From Arcanobacterium bovis (GTDB lineage: Bacteria > Actinomycetota > Actinomycetes > Actinomycetales > Actinomycetaceae): a DNA stretch of 64,000 nt. The stretch is from contig NZ_SJDT01000006.1 in the NCBI RefSeq assembly GCF_004331995.1, positions 1 to 64,000 on the forward strand. Reading direction: 5' to 3'. The notes beneath the pieces are model-generated. The model was not told the DNA's origin and did no database searches. It was given only the letters and a program-made list of their open reading frames with translations. Both the position numbers and the translations under genes were made by a program. Below, one piece after another: positions 2,464-37,590 of this stretch; the first letter of the stretch is position 1; each line of letters starts with the position of its first letter.

Positions 2464-3827
2464 TAGCACACTGTTGGATCGTTGGGATCCTTGTCAAAGT
2501 TGTCGGGAATAGAGTCATGATCTGAGTCGCGTGTATCGCCCTCGGATGTCTTTTTGTAGCGCGCGTTGCGAGGAATCACGATGATAGAAGCGATAAGAGC
2601 TGCACAAATGGATGCGATGAGCACGCCTACTTTTGCAGCGTCGTTATATGACGAACCGAGCTCAAAGCTCAGCTCACCCACAAGCAAAGACACTGTGAAG
2701 CCTATTCCGGCAAGTGCTCCCACTCCCACAAGATCGATCCACCGGATTTCTGAATCGAGAGATGCCCGCGTCAGTTTTGTAACTACGTAAGTCGACAGCA
2801 CGATTCCGAGGGGCTTGCCAATGCATAAACCGGCGATGACTCCCAAGGTCAGTGGCGAGGTGAGTGCCTGTGTTAATCCAGACAAACCGCCAAAGCTCAC
2901 GCCTGCCGAGAAAAATGCAAAGATTGGCACTGCGAAACCGCTCGATAGCGGACGAAAACGGTGCTCGAGCGTCGTCGATAAACTTTCGGTTTCGGTACTG
3001 GTAGTTGGGGCGCCAGCACTGTTACGGTGACGCACCGGAACTGCTAGTCCGAGTACAACGCCGCTGATCGTGGCATGAATACCCGATTCGTGGAGCAATA
3101 CCCAGGCGAGTATCGCCAAGGGCAAGAGAATCAGCCAATTCGCCCACACGTGGCGTGCGAAGAATTGGGGGAATTTTTGCACGGCAAAAGCGAATGCGGC
3201 AACCGGCACGAGAAACAGGGCCAGTGCCGCAAAGTTAATGCTCTGAGTGAAAAATATGGCAATGATTGTGATGGCAATGAGGTCGTCCACTACCGCCAAG
3301 GTAAGAAGGAAAATACGCAGTGGCGACGGAAGGTGTGAGCCGATAATCGCGAGTACGGCCACCGCGAACGCAATGTCGGTGGCAGTAGGAATAGCCCAAC
3401 CGGCAATCGTTATGGGGTTACCTCGATTGACGAGCCAGAATACTCCCGCAGGTACTACAACTCCGCCAACGGCTGCTACAACGGGAACTACCGCCTTGCG
3501 GAAGCTACGCAGATCTCCTGCTATCAGCTCGTATTTTAATTCGAGCCCAACGAGGAAAAAGAAGATCGCGAGTAGGCCGTCGGCAGCCCACTGCCCAACG
3601 GAAAGATCGAGGTGGAACCACGACGTCGAGAAACCAAGTTTCGCGTCACGCAGCGAAAAATACGCATCTGAATATGGAGAATTTGCCCAAAAAATTGCAA
3701 TGATTGACGCGATGATGAGCGCAATTCCGCCAGTAGTCTCTTTGCGTAAAATTTCTCCGATTCGTTGAAATTCGGAATAAGATCCAGGGGAGAATACGCC
3801 GCGCACTCGTTTTGCCACTTGTGACAT
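2463..3827 (-). CDS. nhaA: Na+/H+ antiporter NhaA with acidic C-terminal tail
   Basis: This multi-pass membrane antiporter exchanges Na+ or Li+ for protons. Counted from the upstream ATG at 3839, the functional aspartates are Asp155 (TATDIAFAV) and the pair Asp185-Asp186 (AVVDDLIAI), matching Asp133 and Asp163-164 of E. coli NhaA. The frame opens at 3839, but the ATG four codons later (3827) is directly preceded by AAGGAAAAC, so it is preferred. The last ~22 residues are unusual: DSDHDSIPDNFDKDPND resembles a thrombospondin type-3 or calcium-loop repeat and should lie just after the last helix. The gene converges with the CoA-disulfide reductase. Confidence 0.93.
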   Translation of the reverse strand: MSQVAKRVRGVFSPGSYSEFQRIGEILRKETTGGIALIIASIIAIFWANSPYSDAYFSLRDAKLGFSTSWFHLDLSVGQWAADGLLAIFFFLVGLELKYELIAGDLRSFRKAVVPVVAAVGGVVVPAGVFWLVNRGNPITIAGWAIPTATDIAFAVAVLAIIGSHLPSPLRIFLLTLAVVDDLIAITIIAIFFTQSINFAALALFLVPVAAFAFAVQKFPQFFARHVWANWLILLPLAILAWVLLHESGIHATISGVVLGLAVPVRHRNSAGAPTTSTETESLSTTLEHRFRPLSSGFAVPIFAFFSAGVSFGGLSGLTQALTSPLTLGVIAGLCIGKPLGIVLSTYVVTKLTRASLDSEIRWIDLVGVGALAGIGFTVSLLVGELSFELGSSYNDAAKVGVLIASICAALIASIIVIPRNARYKKTSEGDTRDSDHDSIPDNFDKDPNDPTVC

Positions 3828-3977
3828 GTTTTCCTTCATAAGTTGGGATTAGTTGATGTCGACCAGACTTCCCGACGCGCCTTTTACAACCCTATCGAAG
3901 CACATTTTATTGAAGCAAATTATTGGGATAGAGTGCACTCTATAGCGCCAAATTGGATTTTGGCCGCCATTTATGGC

Positions 3978-4721
3978 ATGAATGATCATATGTTCAATCC
4001 CTACGCACACATGGACGGCCCAGCGCAAAGTTATGTGGATGTGCGCCCGTCCTATCCGCAACAGATCATTGAGCGGCTCGGTCTGAATCCGGGTGCTAAA
4101 GTGCTAGACATTGGAGCGGGAACGGGAAAATTGACGCAGATGTTGTGCGATACTGGCGCTGATGTTTGGGCTGTGGAACCTGCACACGAGATGCGAATCG
4201 CCTTTCAATGCGCCCTTGGAGATTTCCCCACTGAACAACTGCGTGAGGCGAGTGCCGAGGATACTGGTTTGCCGGCGTCGTCCTTCGACATGGTGACCTA
4301 CGGGCAATGTTGGCATTGGCTCAACGGTGAGCAGGCGCTACGAGAGGCGCTGCGGATCCTTCGCCCCGAGGGCAAGATCGCCATTATCAATAATCAACTA
4401 GATGTGTCGGTGCCTTGGGTGCATCGACTCACGCGAATTATGCGTTCCGGTGACGTGCATCGTTTCGACCGTCCACCAGAGCTGAGCTCTGACTTTACGC
4501 AACCAGAGTTCTTTTCCTGTACATGGGAAGATCATTTGACCATTGAGCAGATTTTCGAGCTTGGTACTACGCGCGCTTCGTGGATTCGTTCGACGCAGGA
4601 AAACCGCCGCAAGATGCGTTCAAATCTTGCGTGGTATTTGCGCGAGCATCTTGGGTACGACGACGGCGTGCCGATTGTGCTGCCATATCACACATATTTG
4701 TGGGTTGCTGAGCGTCGTTAG
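3978..4721 (+). CDS. Class I SAM-dependent methyltransferase
   Basis: The protein has a Rossmann methyltransferase core. Motif I is VLDIGAGTGKLTQML, followed by the acidic VWAVEPAHEM strand and a motif II/III region (DMVTYGQCWHWLN), typical of the Methyltransf_11 family. Its substrate cannot be read from sequence. The open frame extends to 3843, but residues before MNDHMFNPYAHMDGPAQSY look unlike the family and lie opposite the nhaA promoter, so ATG 3978 (or 3990) is preferred. Neither ATG has a clear Shine-Dalgarno sequence, so translation may be leaderless. The gene is divergent from nhaA and stands alone before ilvD. Confidence 0.75.
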   Translation: MNDHMFNPYAHMDGPAQSYVDVRPSYPQQIIERLGLNPGAKVLDIGAGTGKLTQMLCDTGADVWAVEPAHEMRIAFQCALGDFPTEQLREASAEDTGLPASSFDMVTYGQCWHWLNGEQALREALRILRPEGKIAIINNQLDVSVPWVHRLTRIMRSGDVHRFDRPPELSSDFTQPEFFSCTWEDHLTIEQIFELGTTRASWIRSTQENRRKMRSNLAWYLREHLGYDDGVPIVLPYHTYLWVAERR

Positions 4722-4828
4722 AGGCATTCTGGGTCTATGTAGCTGGAGTGTTCAAAGACTGAACGTCGTCAATACTTTTCTTCGCGCTTGCCTTAATATA
4801 GTGGAAACAGTTGAGCGAAGGAGACAAA

Positions 4829-6660
4829 ATGCCGCAATTGCGTTCTAAAACGTCCACGTCAGGACGAAATATGGCAGGTGCGCGTGCGCTGTGGCGTGCA
4901 ACTGGCATGCGCTCGGAGGATTTCGGCAAGCCGATTATCGCTGTAGCAAATTCCTTCACTCAATTTGTTCCTGGGCATGTGCACCTAAAAGACATGGGGC
5001 AGCTGGTTATCAAGGCTATCGAGGAGGCCGGCGGAATCGGCAAAGAGTTCAATACGATTGCGGTTGACGACGGTATCGCGATGGGGCATGGCGGAATGCT
5101 GTATTCGCTGCCCTCGCGTGAGCTTATTGCGGATTCTGTGGAGTATATGGTCAATGCCCACTGCGCCGACGCATTGGTGTGCATTTCAAACTGCGACAAA
5201 ATCACGCCGGGAATGCTCATGGCTGCGTTGCGGCTCAATATTCCGGTGATTTTTGTATCTGGTGGGCCGATGGAAGCTGGAAAATCGGTTGATGGGGTAG
5301 TGGATCACAAGCTTGACCTGGTGGATGCTATTGCGAAATCCGCCGATGACGACATTTCCGATAGCGATCTTGCCCAGATTGAGAATAATGCGTGTCCTAC
5401 CTGCGGTTCATGCTCGGGAATGTTTACCGCTAACTCCATGAACTGTTTGACCGAGGCCTTGGGCCTCTCCTTGCCTGGCAACGGATCGACTCTTGCTACT
5501 GCGAAGCAGCGAAAGAATCTATTCGTGGAAGCTGGTCGCCTCATTGTTGAACTGTGCCATCGCTATTATTCGGACGACGACGATTCCGTGCTCCCGCGCA
5601 ATATCGCAACACGGGAGGCGTTTATGAATGCGATGGCGATGGATATTGCTATGGTGGATCAACTAATACGATTCTGCACACCTTGGCAGCCGCTCATGAG
5701 GGAGAAATTGATTTTTCGCTCGCTGATATTGACGCGCTTTCGCGCGAGGTTCCGTGTCTCGCCAAGGTTGCGCCAAATTCGACTCAATACCACATGGAGG
5801 ACTTCCACAGAGCAGGTGGTATTCCTGCTTTGTTGGGAGAATTGCGGCGAGCTAATCTACTCAATCCACAGGTACATTCGGTGCACTCGCGGGATCTGGA
5901 TTCCTGGCTTGCAGATTGGGATATTCGCGCAGCAAACTCACGCGCCGAGGCTCGAGAACTGTTTTCGGCTGCTCCTGGGGGCGTGCGAACAACTGAGCCT
6001 TTTTCGCAGGATAAGCGCTGGGAATCGCTCGATGTGGACGCTGAAAATGGCTGTATTCGCGGTGTTGAGCATGCATATACAGCTGATGGTGGCCTGTGTG
6101 TGTTGTTTGGGAACCTTGCCGAGGACGGTGCCGTAGTGAAAACTGCCGGAATCGGTGAAGAATTGTTCAGCTTTGCTGGGCCTGCGCGGGTAGTGGACTC
6201 GCAGGAGCAAGCGATCGAATTGATTTTGAGTAAGCAAATTCAACCAGGTGACGTGGTTGTGATCCGATATGAAGGTCCGCGTGGCGGGCCAGGTATGCAG
6301 GAAATGCTTTATCCAACGTCCTTCTTGAAGGGTTTGGGATTAGGCAAGAGCTGCGCTCTTATTACTGACGGTCGTTTTTCTGGAGGAACGTCTGGTTTGA
6401 GTATTGGGCATATTTCACCCGAAGCTGCATCAGGTGGTGCCATTGCATTGGTGGAAGAAGGCGACACGATTGTGATCGATATTCCCCGCCGTCGTCTCGT
6501 TCTTGACGTTGATGACGACGAACTGGAACGTCGTCGTGAAGCACGTGGAGCACTGCCATGGAAAGGAAGGCGAGACCGCGTTGTGTCGAAAGCTTTGCAG
6601 GCTTATGCGTCAATGGCAACCAGTGCAGATAAAGGGGCAGTGCGAGAGGTGTCCGAGTAG
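4829..6660 (+). pseudogene. ilvD: Dihydroxy-acid dehydratase, interrupted by a single-base frameshift
   Basis: IlvD dehydrates dihydroxy acids in valine and isoleucine synthesis using an Fe-S cluster. Both halves are well conserved: NCDKITPGM and [17 protein letters not shown] in the first, and the [21 protein letters not shown] region in the second. Start ATG 4829 has GAAGGAGA at 4817-4824. The frame breaks at 5651-5657, where ATGGTGGATCA stands in place of the ATGGGTGGATCA that would encode the invariant MGGSTN motif. One G is missing from a GGG run, and translation then runs out of frame to a stop near 6136. Restoring the base gives about 610 residues, the normal family length, with no other damage. 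It may be a recent mutation, phase variation or a sequencing error. A TATAGT box at 4797-4802 may be the -10 element. Confidence 0.9.
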
Positions 6661-34187: not shown

Positions 34188-36290
34188 GTGAGCGTGAACG
34201 CAGGTCAAACATCGGTAAATGAAATGCAATTTGCTGGTTGGGAAGGTTTCGCTGGAGAAACTTGGAAATCAGAAATTAATGTCCGTGACTTTATCCAGGA
34301 GAATTACACCCCGTACGAGGGTGACGATTCCTTCTTGGCTGGTCCCACCGAAAAAACCCTCAATCTGTGGAAGACGCTTGATGAGAAGTATCTTTCGGTT
34401 GAGCGTGAAAAGCGTGTGTACGACGTCGACGTCGATATCCCAGCAGATGTTGATGCCTTCGGTCCAGGCTACATTTCGGAAGACGACGATGTCGTCGTTG
34501 GTTTGCAAACGGATGTGCCTCTCAAGCGTGCCATGATGCCTAATGGTGGATGGCGCATGGTTGAGGCAGCAATTAACGAAGCTGGTAAGGAGATTAACCC
34601 GCGCGTTAAGGAAATCTTCACCAAGTATCGCAAGACCCACAACGAAGGTGTTTTCGATATTTACACGCCGCGTATTCGTGCTGCTCGCTCGTCGCATATT
34701 ATTACCGGCCTGCCAGATGCCTATGGGCGTGGCCGCATCATTGGCGACTACCGCCGCGTCGCTCTCTACGGCGTCGATTACCTCATCAACGAGAAGATCG
34801 AAGCGCGCGATTCAGTTGCCGATCAGCCATTCTCTGAGCACTGGGCACGTTACCGCGAAGAGCATTCAGAGCAGATCAAGGCTCTCAAGAAGCTCAAGCG
34901 TATGGCGGAAAGTTACGGTTTCGATATCTCACAGCCAGCTACCACCGCTAAAGAAGCAGTGCAGTGGACCTATTTCGGTTACTTGGCTTCGGTGAAGTCC
35001 CAAGACGGCGCAGCAATGAGCTTCGGTCGTCTCTCTGGATTCTTCGATGTCTACTTCGAGCGTGACTTCCAGCGCGGAATTCTCACTGAATCCGAGGCTC
35101 AGGAAATCATCGACGCCCTAGTTATCAAGTTGCGCATCGTTCGTTTCTTGCGCACCGAGGCTTACGATCAGATCTTCTCAGGCGATCCGTATTGGGCAAC
35201 ATGGTCCGACGGTGGCTTCTCGGAAGACGGCCGCACTCTTGTTACCAAGACTTCGTTCCGCCTCCTCCAGACTCTCATGAATCTTGGCCCAGCACCGGAG
35301 CCAAACATCACGATCTTCTGGTCGGATCAGCTTCCAGTTGGTTACAAGAACTTCTGTGCTCGCGTTTCGATTGAAACGTCGTCAATCCAGTACGAGGCAG
35401 ATGAGCAGATTCGTTGCCATTGGGGCGACGACGCTGCTATCGCATGCTGTGTTTCGCCAATGCGCGTGGGTAAGCAGATGCAGTTCTTCGGCGCTCGCGT
35501 CAATGCTGCAAAGGCTCTTTTGTACGCCATGAATGGTGGACGCGATGAGATGTCCGGCAAGCAGATCGTCGAGGGCTATTCGCCAATCGAAAGCGATGGC
35601 GAACTCGATTTCGACGAGGTGTGGGCAAAGTATGAGGACATGCTTGACTGGGTAGTCGGTACCTATGTTGAAGCCCTCAACATCATCCACTACAGCCACG
35701 ATAAGTACGCTTACGAAGCTATGGAAATGGCTTTGCACGACTCCGATATCGTTCGCACGATGGGTTGTGGAATCGCAGGTCTTTCGATCGTTGCAGATTC
35801 GCTCTCGGCTATTAAGTATGCCAAGGTCACGCCGATCCGCGACGAAACCGGTCTGATTGTTGATTATAAGACGGAAGGCGATTTCCCACGTTACGGAAAT
35901 GACGACGATCGTGCAGATGATATTGCTGCTACCATCGTTCACACCGTGATGAGCAAGATCAAGGCCATCCCGATGTACCGTGATGCTATTCCAACGCAGT
36001 CGGTTCTTACGATTACCTCAAACGTGGTCTATGGCAAGGCAACTGGAAACTTCCCATCGGGTCACCGCGCAGGAACGCCATTCGCTCCAGGTGCAAACCC
36101 TGAAAATGGTGCGGACACCCACGGCATGCTCGCCTCGATGCTTTCGGTAGGAAAGCTCGATTACGACGACGCTCTGGACGGTATTTCCTTGACCAACACT
36201 ATTGTTCCTTCCTCGTTGGGACGCACCCAACAGGAGCAGATCGAAAATCTGGTCGGCATCATGGATGCTGGCTTCATTAAGCAAGACTGA
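34188..36290 (+). CDS. pflB: Pyruvate formate-lyase catalytic subunit lacking the glycyl-radical domain
   Basis: This 700-residue formate C-acetyltransferase converts pyruvate and CoA to acetyl-CoA and formate under anaerobic conditions. The catalytic pair is Cys420-Cys421 in AIACCVSPMRVGKQMQFFGARVN, equivalent to Cys418-419 of E. coli PFL. The fold is complete up to DDALDGISLTNTIVP, but the protein stops at VGIMDAGFIKQD. The final ~60 residues of ordinary PFL, including the RVSGYAV glycyl-radical loop, are missing. That region is encoded separately 98 bp downstream. No nucleotide change would join the two: the stop is followed by a hairpin and a fresh ribosome binding site. The enzyme must therefore work as a two-polypeptide catalytic unit if it works at all. 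The start is GTG with AAGGAG. Confidence 0.95.
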   Translation: MSVNAGQTSVNEMQFAGWEGFAGETWKSEINVRDFIQENYTPYEGDDSFLAGPTEKTLNLWKTLDEKYLSVEREKRVYDVDVDIPADVDAFGPGYISEDDDVVVGLQTDVPLKRAMMPNGGWRMVEAAINEAGKEINPRVKEIFTKYRKTHNEGVFDIYTPRIRAARSSHIITGLPDAYGRGRIIGDYRRVALYGVDYLINEKIEARDSVADQPFSEHWARYREEHSEQIKALKKLKRMAESYGFDISQPATTAKEAVQWTYFGYLASVKSQDGAAMSFGRLSGFFDVYFERDFQRGILTESEAQEIIDALVIKLRIVRFLRTEAYDQIFSGDPYWATWSDGGFSEDGRTLVTKTSFRLLQTLMNLGPAPEPNITIFWSDQLPVGYKNFCARVSIETSSIQYEADEQIRCHWGDDAAIACCVSPMRVGKQMQFFGARVNAAKALLYAMNGGRDEMSGKQIVEGYSPIESDGELDFDEVWAKYEDMLDWVVGTYVEALNIIHYSHDKYAYEAMEMALHDSDIVRTMGCGIAGLSIVADSLSAIKYAKVTPIRDETGLIVDYKTEGDFPRYGNDDDRADDIAATIVHTVMSKIKAIPMYRDAIPTQSVLTITSNVVYGKATGNFPSGHRAGTPFAPGANPENGADTHGMLASMLSVGKLDYDDALDGISLTNTIVPSSLGRTQQEQIENLVGIMDAGFIKQD

Positions 36291-36302
36291 GTCCGAAAAC
36301 AC

Positions 36303-36336
36303 GTTGCTTGGCAGTAGAAATATGTTGCCAAGCAAC
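36303..36336 (+). promoter_or_regulatory. Intra-operon stem-loop between pflB and the glycyl-radical gene
   Basis: A perfect 11-bp stem, GTTGCTTGGCA (36303-36313) with TGCCAAGCAAC (36326-36336), has a 12-base loop. No U-tract follows, so it is more likely an mRNA processing or stability element, or a partial terminator, than a full stop. It could set the ratio of catalytic to radical subunit. Confidence 0.7.
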
Positions 36337-36388
36337 TAAAATCGGTATTGGGAAAAACATATTTAATAAAACCGTTTAGGAGAATCTC

Positions 36389-36640
36389 ATGGCAACAAAA
36401 ACATACGCAGAGCGTGAAGCCTCAATGAAGGCAAGCCGTGAAGCCAAGGGTGGCATTCAGGGGCTTTACCATGCAAATATCAACGTGCTCAACCGTGATA
36501 CTCTCGAGGACGCCATGGAGCATCCTGAGAAGTACCCACAGCTCACTGTGCGTGTTTCTGGTTACGCAGTGAACTTCGTGCGTCTTACTCGCGAGCAGCA
36601 GATGGACGTAATCTCGCGCACCTTCCACGAAGGAATGTGA
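36389..36640 (+). CDS. grcA: Stand-alone glycyl-radical domain protein (GrcA/YfiD-like), predicted obligate PFL subunit
   Basis: This 83-residue protein has a C-terminal two-thirds that is the missing end of pyruvate formate-lyase: [20 protein letters not shown], then [12 protein letters not shown] with radical Gly58, then [18 protein letters not shown]. In E. coli the related YfiD/GrcA replaces the damaged end of an intact PFL. Here PflB has no such domain, so this protein is predicted to be essential. The first ~20 residues ([20 protein letters not shown]) are charged, probably helical, and may dock on PflB. It has its own strong ribosome binding site, TTTAGGAGA (36376-36384). pflA follows within ~60 bp. 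Confidence 0.93.
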
Positions 36641-36702
36641 CGCATCGCCGCTGCATTTAAGTGTGGCGGCAAACAAAAAGCAACTTTAAGGATCGGGGCG
36701 GT

Positions 36703-37590
36703 ATGACTTTGTTAAAAACTCGGGCAACTGAGGGATCAACAGGGGAGTACCGCCCCGAACCGCTTGAAATCGAAGTTCCGCGCCTTGGTGGCGCTGGACT
36801 TTCCGGCGTTACCTTTGCTGGGCACATGAGCCACACGGAGCAAATGATGGCGGTTCGTGCTGGCGAAGTAGGATCAGTGCACTCGTGGGAGCTGGTCACT
36901 GCGGTTGATGGTCCAGGTACGCGCATGACTACCTTTTTCGCAGGTTGCCCACTGCGATGCTTATATTGTCATAACCCCGACACGATGAAGATGCGGGACG
37001 GCACAGCAGTTCGTACAGAGGATCTACTGGCACGCATTTCGCGTTATCGTTCAGTTTTTCGGGCGACGGGCGGTGGAGTCACCTTCTCTGGTGGGGAGCC
37101 GTTATTCCAACCTGCTTTTTTGGCGAAATTATTGCGCGGATGCAAAGAAATGGGAATCCATACCGCCATTGACACTTCCGGCTTCCTCGGTACTGCCCTC
37201 ACAGATACAATGATGGACGATCTCGACTTAGTACTTCTCGACGTCAAGAGTGGTATCCCTGAGGTTTATAAGAAGACGACGGGTCGCGAATTGGAGCCTA
37301 CGCTTCGTTTCGGACAGCGACTTTCAGATGCTGGTAAGCCGATTTGGATTCGCTTTGTTCTTGTGCCTACCTTGACCGATTCACCAGAGAATGTGAACGC
37401 AGTTGCGGATATTGTGAGCGCTTGGAAGTCTGTAGAACGCGTTGAAGTTCTTCCTTTTCACCAGATGGGCCGCGACAAGTGGGAGACGCTGGGGATGGAA
37501 TACGAACTTGACGACGTCGTCCCGCCGTCAAACGAAGATACCGAAGCTGTGCGGGAAATTTTCCGCGCGCGTGGTCTAACTGTTCACTGA
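36703..37590 (+). CDS. pflA: Pyruvate formate-lyase activating enzyme (radical SAM)
   Basis: PflA uses a [4Fe-4S] cluster and S-adenosylmethionine to abstract hydrogen from the PFL glycine. The CxxxCxxC motif is CPLRCLYC (Cys82, Cys86, Cys89), preceded by the conserved SWELVTAVDGPGTRMTTFFAG. The rest follows E. coli PflA, including GGGVTFSGGEPLFQ. At ~295 residues it carries an N-terminal extension of about 50 residues compared with the 246-residue E. coli enzyme. The frame opens at 36661, but ATG 36703 has AAGGA at 36688-36692. The extension might help it act on a radical domain carried by a separate protein; this is speculation. Confidence 0.93.
   Translation: MTLLKTRATEGSTGEYRPEPLEIEVPRLGGAGLSGVTFAGHMSHTEQMMAVRAGEVGSVHSWELVTAVDGPGTRMTTFFAGCPLRCLYCHNPDTMKMRDGTAVRTEDLLARISRYRSVFRATGGGVTFSGGEPLFQPAFLAKLLRGCKEMGIHTAIDTSGFLGTALTDTMMDDLDLVLLDVKSGIPEVYKKTTGRELEPTLRFGQRLSDAGKPIWIRFVLVPTLTDSPENVNAVADIVSAWKSVERVEVLPFHQMGRDKWETLGMEYELDDVVPPSNEDTEAVREIFRARGLTVH

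Follow-up and report, generated by a model that had tools for sequence, protein, structure and literature searches.

The window is a stretch of 64,000 nucleotides from Arcanobacterium bovis (contig NZ_SJDT01000006.1, positions 1 to 64,000 of the forward strand). It contains pflB, grcA2 and pflA in one + strand cluster, with pflA directly downstream of grcA2 (Table 1). The cluster appears to encode a pyruvate formate-lyase (PFL) divided over two polypeptides. A preliminary description of this DNA had claimed that PflB possesses the Cys-Cys pair and ends before the radical domain, and that the next gene, encoding 83 residues and with its own ribosome binding site, carries the missing region with the radical residue Gly58. 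Our analysis agrees on each of these points. The C-terminus of PflB is ...NLVGIMDAGFIKQD, located before the glycyl-radical loop. The grcA2 reading frame is shifted by +2 relative to that of pflB and starts 98 nt downstream. Upstream of its ATG is TTTAGGAGAATCTC. The pflA frame stops at 37590 and has two start candidates; ATG 36703 is the likely start and GTG 36661 a possible alternative.

Table 1. Features of the pflB-grcA2-pflA cluster in the window.
Feature	Position	Strand	Description
pflB	34188-36290	+	GTG start, 700 aa; PFL catalytic core, C420/C421 catalytic pair
spacer pflB-grcA2	36291-36388	+	98 nt; 14-bp RNA hairpin and Shine-Dalgarno-like AGGAG before grcA2
grcA2	36389-36640	+	ATG start, 83 aa; glycyl-radical subunit, Gly58
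pflA	36703-37590	+	PFL-activating radical-SAM enzyme; TIGR02493 314.9 bits, cut-off 231.75

Comparison with family models indicated that the two proteins complement each other. PflB matches positions 2-679 of the 744 in TIGR01255 (1005 bits, cut-off 994.2), and GrcA2 covers positions 682-744 of the same model. TIGR01255 requires the glycyl-radical loop on the same chain; PflB lacks it, and the loop is located on GrcA2. PflB aligns to residues 3-693 of E. coli PFL (1h16), with C420/C421 on C418/C419. Residues 21-83 of GrcA2 align without gaps to E. coli residues 697-759, so Gly58 is equivalent to Gly734. The Pfam domain Gly_radical (PF01228) straddles the break, with positions 1-65 on PflB and 62-106 on GrcA2. 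Judged from these alignments, PflB and GrcA2 together make up a nearly complete PFL. N-terminal to its radical domain, GrcA2 has a conserved extension of about 24 residues, which includes T5, R9, M13 and R17. No additional domain was found in either protein by a Pfam scan.

The genome of 2.02 Mb (31 contigs, 100% complete) contains a single PFL-like (PF02901) match, which is the window pflB; no second PFL was found in it. Three Gly_radical matches are present genome-wide, the PflB part, the GrcA2 part and a protein on contig 27. The last is the anaerobic ribonucleotide reductase NrdD (TIGR02487, 592.7 vs 326.35 bits). A second full-length PFL was considered and ruled out by these profile searches. 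The earlier proposal that GrcA2 is the only PFL radical carrier is in line with this result.

The arrangement is conserved in the family, which includes Actinomyces gaoshouyii. We surveyed 151 family genomes with a PFL model and a GrcA2 model. A split PFL, with a core ending at about position 680 of the model plus GrcA2, is found in 96 of them, and a one-chain PFL in 32. Six others have only a more distant glycyl-radical enzyme (GRE; frame of 776-910 aa) and 17 have no match. The GrcA2 cut-off is exceeded in 95 of the 96 split genomes; in the other (G036), grcA2 is interrupted by the contig end. GrcA2 and one-chain PFL are mutually exclusive across the family, none of the 96 GrcA2 genomes having both. 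In all 96, grcA2 lies directly downstream of the core, with contig and strand in common. The model matches are -15 to 257 nt apart (median 82); relative frames 0, 1 and 2 occur in 26, 42 and 28 pairs, respectively.

Similar loci were found beyond the family. In a survey of the order, 42 of 297 genomes, spread over six families, exceed the GrcA2 cut-off, each with that one match only to the GrcA2 model at E <= 1e-10. All 14 loci fetched from the order's five other families contain a truncated core and a separate GrcA2. The search for relatives suggested in the preliminary description, for PflB proteins ending at the same point beside a GrcA-like gene, thus returned such pairs in 96/96 family genomes with GrcA2 and 14/14 loci fetched elsewhere in the order. 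Among 21 loci compared, grcA2 has its own ATG in every one, and GrcA2 is 81-86 aa long in 19. Among the best 80 of 588 named-genome loci, this split (type A) is found in Trueperella, Actinomyces, Dermabacter, Brachybacterium and at least seven Corynebacterium records, in one of which (L065) the core is only partly on the contig. The other loci among these 80 are mostly one-chain PFLs, and two (L126, L127) represent a second split type (type B). Whole-genome searches of nine named split records (L064, L066-L073; genome completeness not stated) found no one-chain PFL, and one core and one radical part in each. The cores of L064 and L154 are identical. In Corynebacterium pollutisoli, both parts were returned as a single match with an internal stop. 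In a metagenome-assembled genome (MAG) of Trueperella (L063, 73-2241), one in-frame stop is located inside the core frame, and grcA2 and pflA are open downstream.

Conservation extends to the residues. The Cys pair and the radical Gly, the latter in a RVSGYAV-type motif, are kept in all 162 loci with an assessable core (one-chain 92/92, type A 56/56, type B 14/14), a count that includes near-duplicates. Four pairs gave Nei-Gojobori dN/dS values of 0.01-0.07 for pflB and grcA2, with dS saturated in several; for pflA, dN/dS was computable in one pair only. On these estimates, both the pflB core and grcA2 are under purifying selection. In a set of 53 distinct GrcA2 sequences, all have R9, 52 have M13 and 51 have R17. 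The i, i+4, i+8 spacing of these residues in the extension resembles one face of a helix kept by selection.

The hairpin in the spacer has arms at 36303-36316 and 36323-36336 (z -3.66). In a 98%-identical relative (L056), the spacer hairpin has a z of -5.97, with paired changes in the stem compared to the window. No U-run follows the hairpin on the + strand, and it therefore perhaps has a role in mRNA processing or stability. It may tune the ratio of PflB to GrcA2. Strong spacer hairpins are not general, as 9 of 52 spacers, folded without shuffles, are below -25 kcal/mol. In the same 52 loci, the mean Shine-Dalgarno duplex energy is -7.3 kcal/mol for grcA2 and -7.8 kcal/mol for pflB, the pflB mean leaving out six loci in which its start was not assigned. 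A few of the grcA2 sites are weak.

A phylum search of 396 genomes revealed type-B loci in two families (f35 and f56) outside the window's class, which may belong to Coriobacteriia. Among their 22 genomes with any match, 21 have a small radical open reading frame and no one-chain PFL-type match, and the 22nd (G530) has another GRE only. The type-B set comprises 12 loci fetched from these families (L173-L184) and two Bacillota MAGs (L126, L127). The type-B core stops after ...ALGK, about 15 residues earlier than type A, and has a new acidic tail. The tail contains cysteines (CxCC-like) in 11 of L173-L184 and in neither MAG. The small protein begins with a Q(V/A)DNLVxM(L/I)D(G/A)Y helix. The five type-B small proteins that were scanned all score 160.9-168.3 bits, above the NCBIfam NF038360 GrcA3 cut-off of 158, whereas the window GrcA2 is below it (108.1 bits). 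The genome of L127 encodes two small radical proteins (G810:C42:56849 and C44:22849) and a single core, one of the two being on a different contig from the core. A one-chain PFL in a Lachnospiraceae MAG (L103, 2883-5234) is about 30 residues longer at the site of the type-B break; it adjoins the type-B group in the tree and is perhaps an intermediate toward type B.

The PFL chains of PDB entries 38lb and 38la give no match to a radical domain. Identity of 38lb to the five f35 type-B cores is 76.7-83.4%, and it has their Cys-containing tail; this comparison makes 38lb a probable natural type-B core. 38la terminates with ...PNSLGKED, and its nearest relatives are one-chain Bacillota PFLs. It was considered as a second type-B core and dropped, being nearer to the one-chain L102 (76%) than to the type-B L127 (74%). 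38la may thus be a construct shortened by its makers, or else a natural chain.

The two split types are located in different parts of the tree. In a FastTree analysis of 150 cores with the break region removed, the 14 type-B rows form one group (support 88) within Bacillota-type PFLs, far from the window clade. Type A, in which L155 and L162 are counted, forms one group (support 89) beside Bifidobacteriaceae, with one nested one-chain row (L111). In a quick IQ-TREE analysis of 57 rows, Bifidobacteriaceae move into the split clade, weakly supported. A tree that kept the split rows together reached a higher likelihood, and the AU test did not reject a single split clade (p-AU 0.664). Since both the break points and the tree positions differ, the two splits appear to have separate origins, and on this evidence PFL was probably turned into a two-polypeptide enzyme at least twice. 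The nested row is from Cellulomonas citrea (2844-5180). Its core is 81% identical to the window split core, compared to 52-69% for the other one-chain PFLs among the best 80 of 588 loci, and its genome also contains a partial second PFL match. This one-chain PFL is either a re-fused or a pre-split form. Similarly, the one-chain PFLs of Bifidobacteriaceae are either older than the split or re-fused.

A two-polypeptide function is strongly supported by the genomic data. The PFL in the window is very probably an obligate two-polypeptide enzyme, composed of the PflB core and the radical subunit GrcA2 and activated by PflA. The preliminary description had reached the same reading, and the complementary halves, their conservation and the exclusion of one-chain PFL favor it. 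A likely mechanism can be modelled on an engineered E. coli pair, a shortened PFL (tPFL) and truncated YfiD. PflB, with its Cys-Cys pair, would form the catalytic core. GrcA2, carrying the glycyl-radical loop, would dock into PflB and complete the barrel. PflA would install the radical on Gly58 of GrcA2, from which it would cross the protein-protein interface to a core cysteine, where a thiyl radical would form. O2 would cut only the 83-aa GrcA2 and spare the 700-aa core, and fresh GrcA2 could restore activity.

According to the excerpted text of Andorfer et al. (2021; PMC8683613), the engineered tPFL(1-695) plus truncated YfiD has a kcat of 204 s-1, compared to 105 for PFL, which favors the two-polypeptide enzyme. 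Several points weigh against it. The same excerpts state that binding between tPFL and YfiD is too weak for isothermal titration calorimetry, and that activation of tPFL is 32-fold below that of cPFL:YfiD. By analogy, a break at this point would be poor for assembly unless the interface in the window compensates. The natural break is within a few residues of the poorly binding engineered end; therefore, the natural pair must have solved assembly. The conserved GrcA2 extension is perhaps the solution, going by this analogy. An N-terminal extension of about 55 residues in PflA was also considered as tied to the split and was rejected, being present in the locus sample beside many one-chain PFLs as well, in Actinomycetota and Bifidobacteriaceae. 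These one-chain neighbors undercut it as a compensation for weak assembly. In addition, PFL is missing from 23 of the 151 family genomes and is thus not universal.

One gene could have been divided in the window genome by an error in sequencing or assembly or by a recent nonsense mutation. This would be conceivable from a single genome, and the Trueperella MAG has an extra interruption inside its core. However, the break is common to all family GrcA2 genomes and to loci of five further families, grcA2 has its own ATG in all loci compared, and the spacers are in all three frames. We regard an error or recent mutation as next to impossible; the same conservation counters the possibility, raised in the preliminary description, that resequencing would join the two frames. 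Stop read-through, frameshift or protein splicing could instead rejoin the halves into a one-chain PFL, and in-frame genes are indeed separated by a single stop in five loci, four of Corynebacterium and one of Dermabacter. Just 26 of the 96 family pairs share a frame, though, and spacers extend to more than 200 nt. Translation of GrcA2 has a start of its own; the Shine-Dalgarno sequence before it is on average comparable to that of pflB and weak in a few loci. The Pfam scan revealed no additional domain. Rejoining is thus very improbable. With the split in 96/96 genomes and all three relative frames, sequencing error or read-through is therefore no explanation.

Other alternatives concern the role of GrcA2. 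It could be a spare part for an intact PFL or for other GREs, with the truncated PflB a dead remnant. Its NCBIfam name is autonomous cofactor, at least 7 of the 96 GrcA2 genomes have another PFL-like GRE (six with frames of 847-926 aa; G031), and the window genome has NrdD. This role is nevertheless very unlikely, given that one-chain PFL is absent from every GrcA2 genome, that a second match to the GrcA2 model is absent in 90 of the 96, and that the core is under purifying selection with the CC pair in 56/56 loci. It is also conceivable, and compatible with these results, that the two-polypeptide PFL is real, with the radical subunit bound for life and the split neutral, which denies only the exchange. 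One-chain relatives exist, namely Bifidobacteriaceae beside the split clade and the split-like core of Cellulomonas citrea, and separate genes are by themselves no proof of exchange. Two separate, widely persisting splits and the Bacillota MAG with two radical subunits per core argue against permanent binding. We consider it a serious, if somewhat doubtful, possibility. As for exchange, the chances are about even that PFL, at least twice and at two break points, became an obligate two-subunit enzyme with a consumable radical subunit, repairable by design. O2 would then destroy an 83-residue protein rather than a 760-residue enzyme, and the core would be reloaded.

If the two-polypeptide reading is correct, most members of the window's family that have a PFL natively receive its radical cofactor from a separate protein; the same holds for Dermabacter, Brachybacterium and some Corynebacterium and, with the second split form, for other lineages. 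Annotations should then treat GrcA2 as an essential part of the enzyme instead of a spare. The pair would provide natural parts for studying a glycyl radical crossing a protein interface, and the assembly of a core ending where the engineered E. coli cut binds poorly. It would also give engineers a PFL whose radical subunit is already separate.

The preliminary description knew of no biochemical characterization of this arrangement. This stands insofar as literature searches (titles and shown abstracts) found no paper describing a natural split PFL, and nothing relevant for GrcA2 as a whole word or for the PDB codes 38la and 38lb. It has to be qualified insofar as GrcA2 is already an NCBIfam family and 38lb probably a related core. 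With the small proteins named in NCBIfam and 38lb in the PDB, it looks as if others work on split PFL. For Candidatus Mycoplasma girerdii, an excerpt of PMC9239101 counts the transcripts of a PFL and of a separate 'autonomous glycyl radical cofactor' with the most abundant ones; this pair could be another split PFL.

The window small protein belongs to NCBIfam NF008341 GrcA2 (159.5 bits, cut-off 145), matching model positions 1-79 including the N-terminal part. The family name says cofactor and does not indicate a partner PFL without a radical domain. One close parallel is E. coli GrcA/YfiD with oxygen-cleaved PFL, which has in common a small protein with the PFL glycyl-radical domain, the activase PflA and the passage of a radical from one chain to the other. 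An intact PFL is present beside YfiD, which is therefore optional; in the excerpts of PMC8683613, YfiD has 127 aa with a disordered N-terminus of 60 residues. In contrast, GrcA2 adjoins a core without a radical domain, and one-chain PFL is absent. GrcA2 is also below the cut-off of GrcA/YfiD TIGR04365 (94.2 bits vs 170), and the full-length PFL that coexists with GrcA/YfiD and is rescued by it is present neither in the window genome nor in any of the 96 family GrcA2 genomes. The engineered tPFL (1-695) plus truncated YfiD (61-127) has its break a few residues from the natural one, as the window core ends at about E. coli residue 697. The engineered pair is competent once activated, with poor binding and activation, whereas the window arrangement is natural, conserved and equipped with the GrcA2 N-terminal extension. 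The type-B split (GrcA3, PDB 38lb) follows the same plan, a core without a radical domain and an adjacent small radical protein. It differs from the window in the NLVxMLDGY helix on the small protein and the acidic core tail, and groups with Bacillota-type PFLs.

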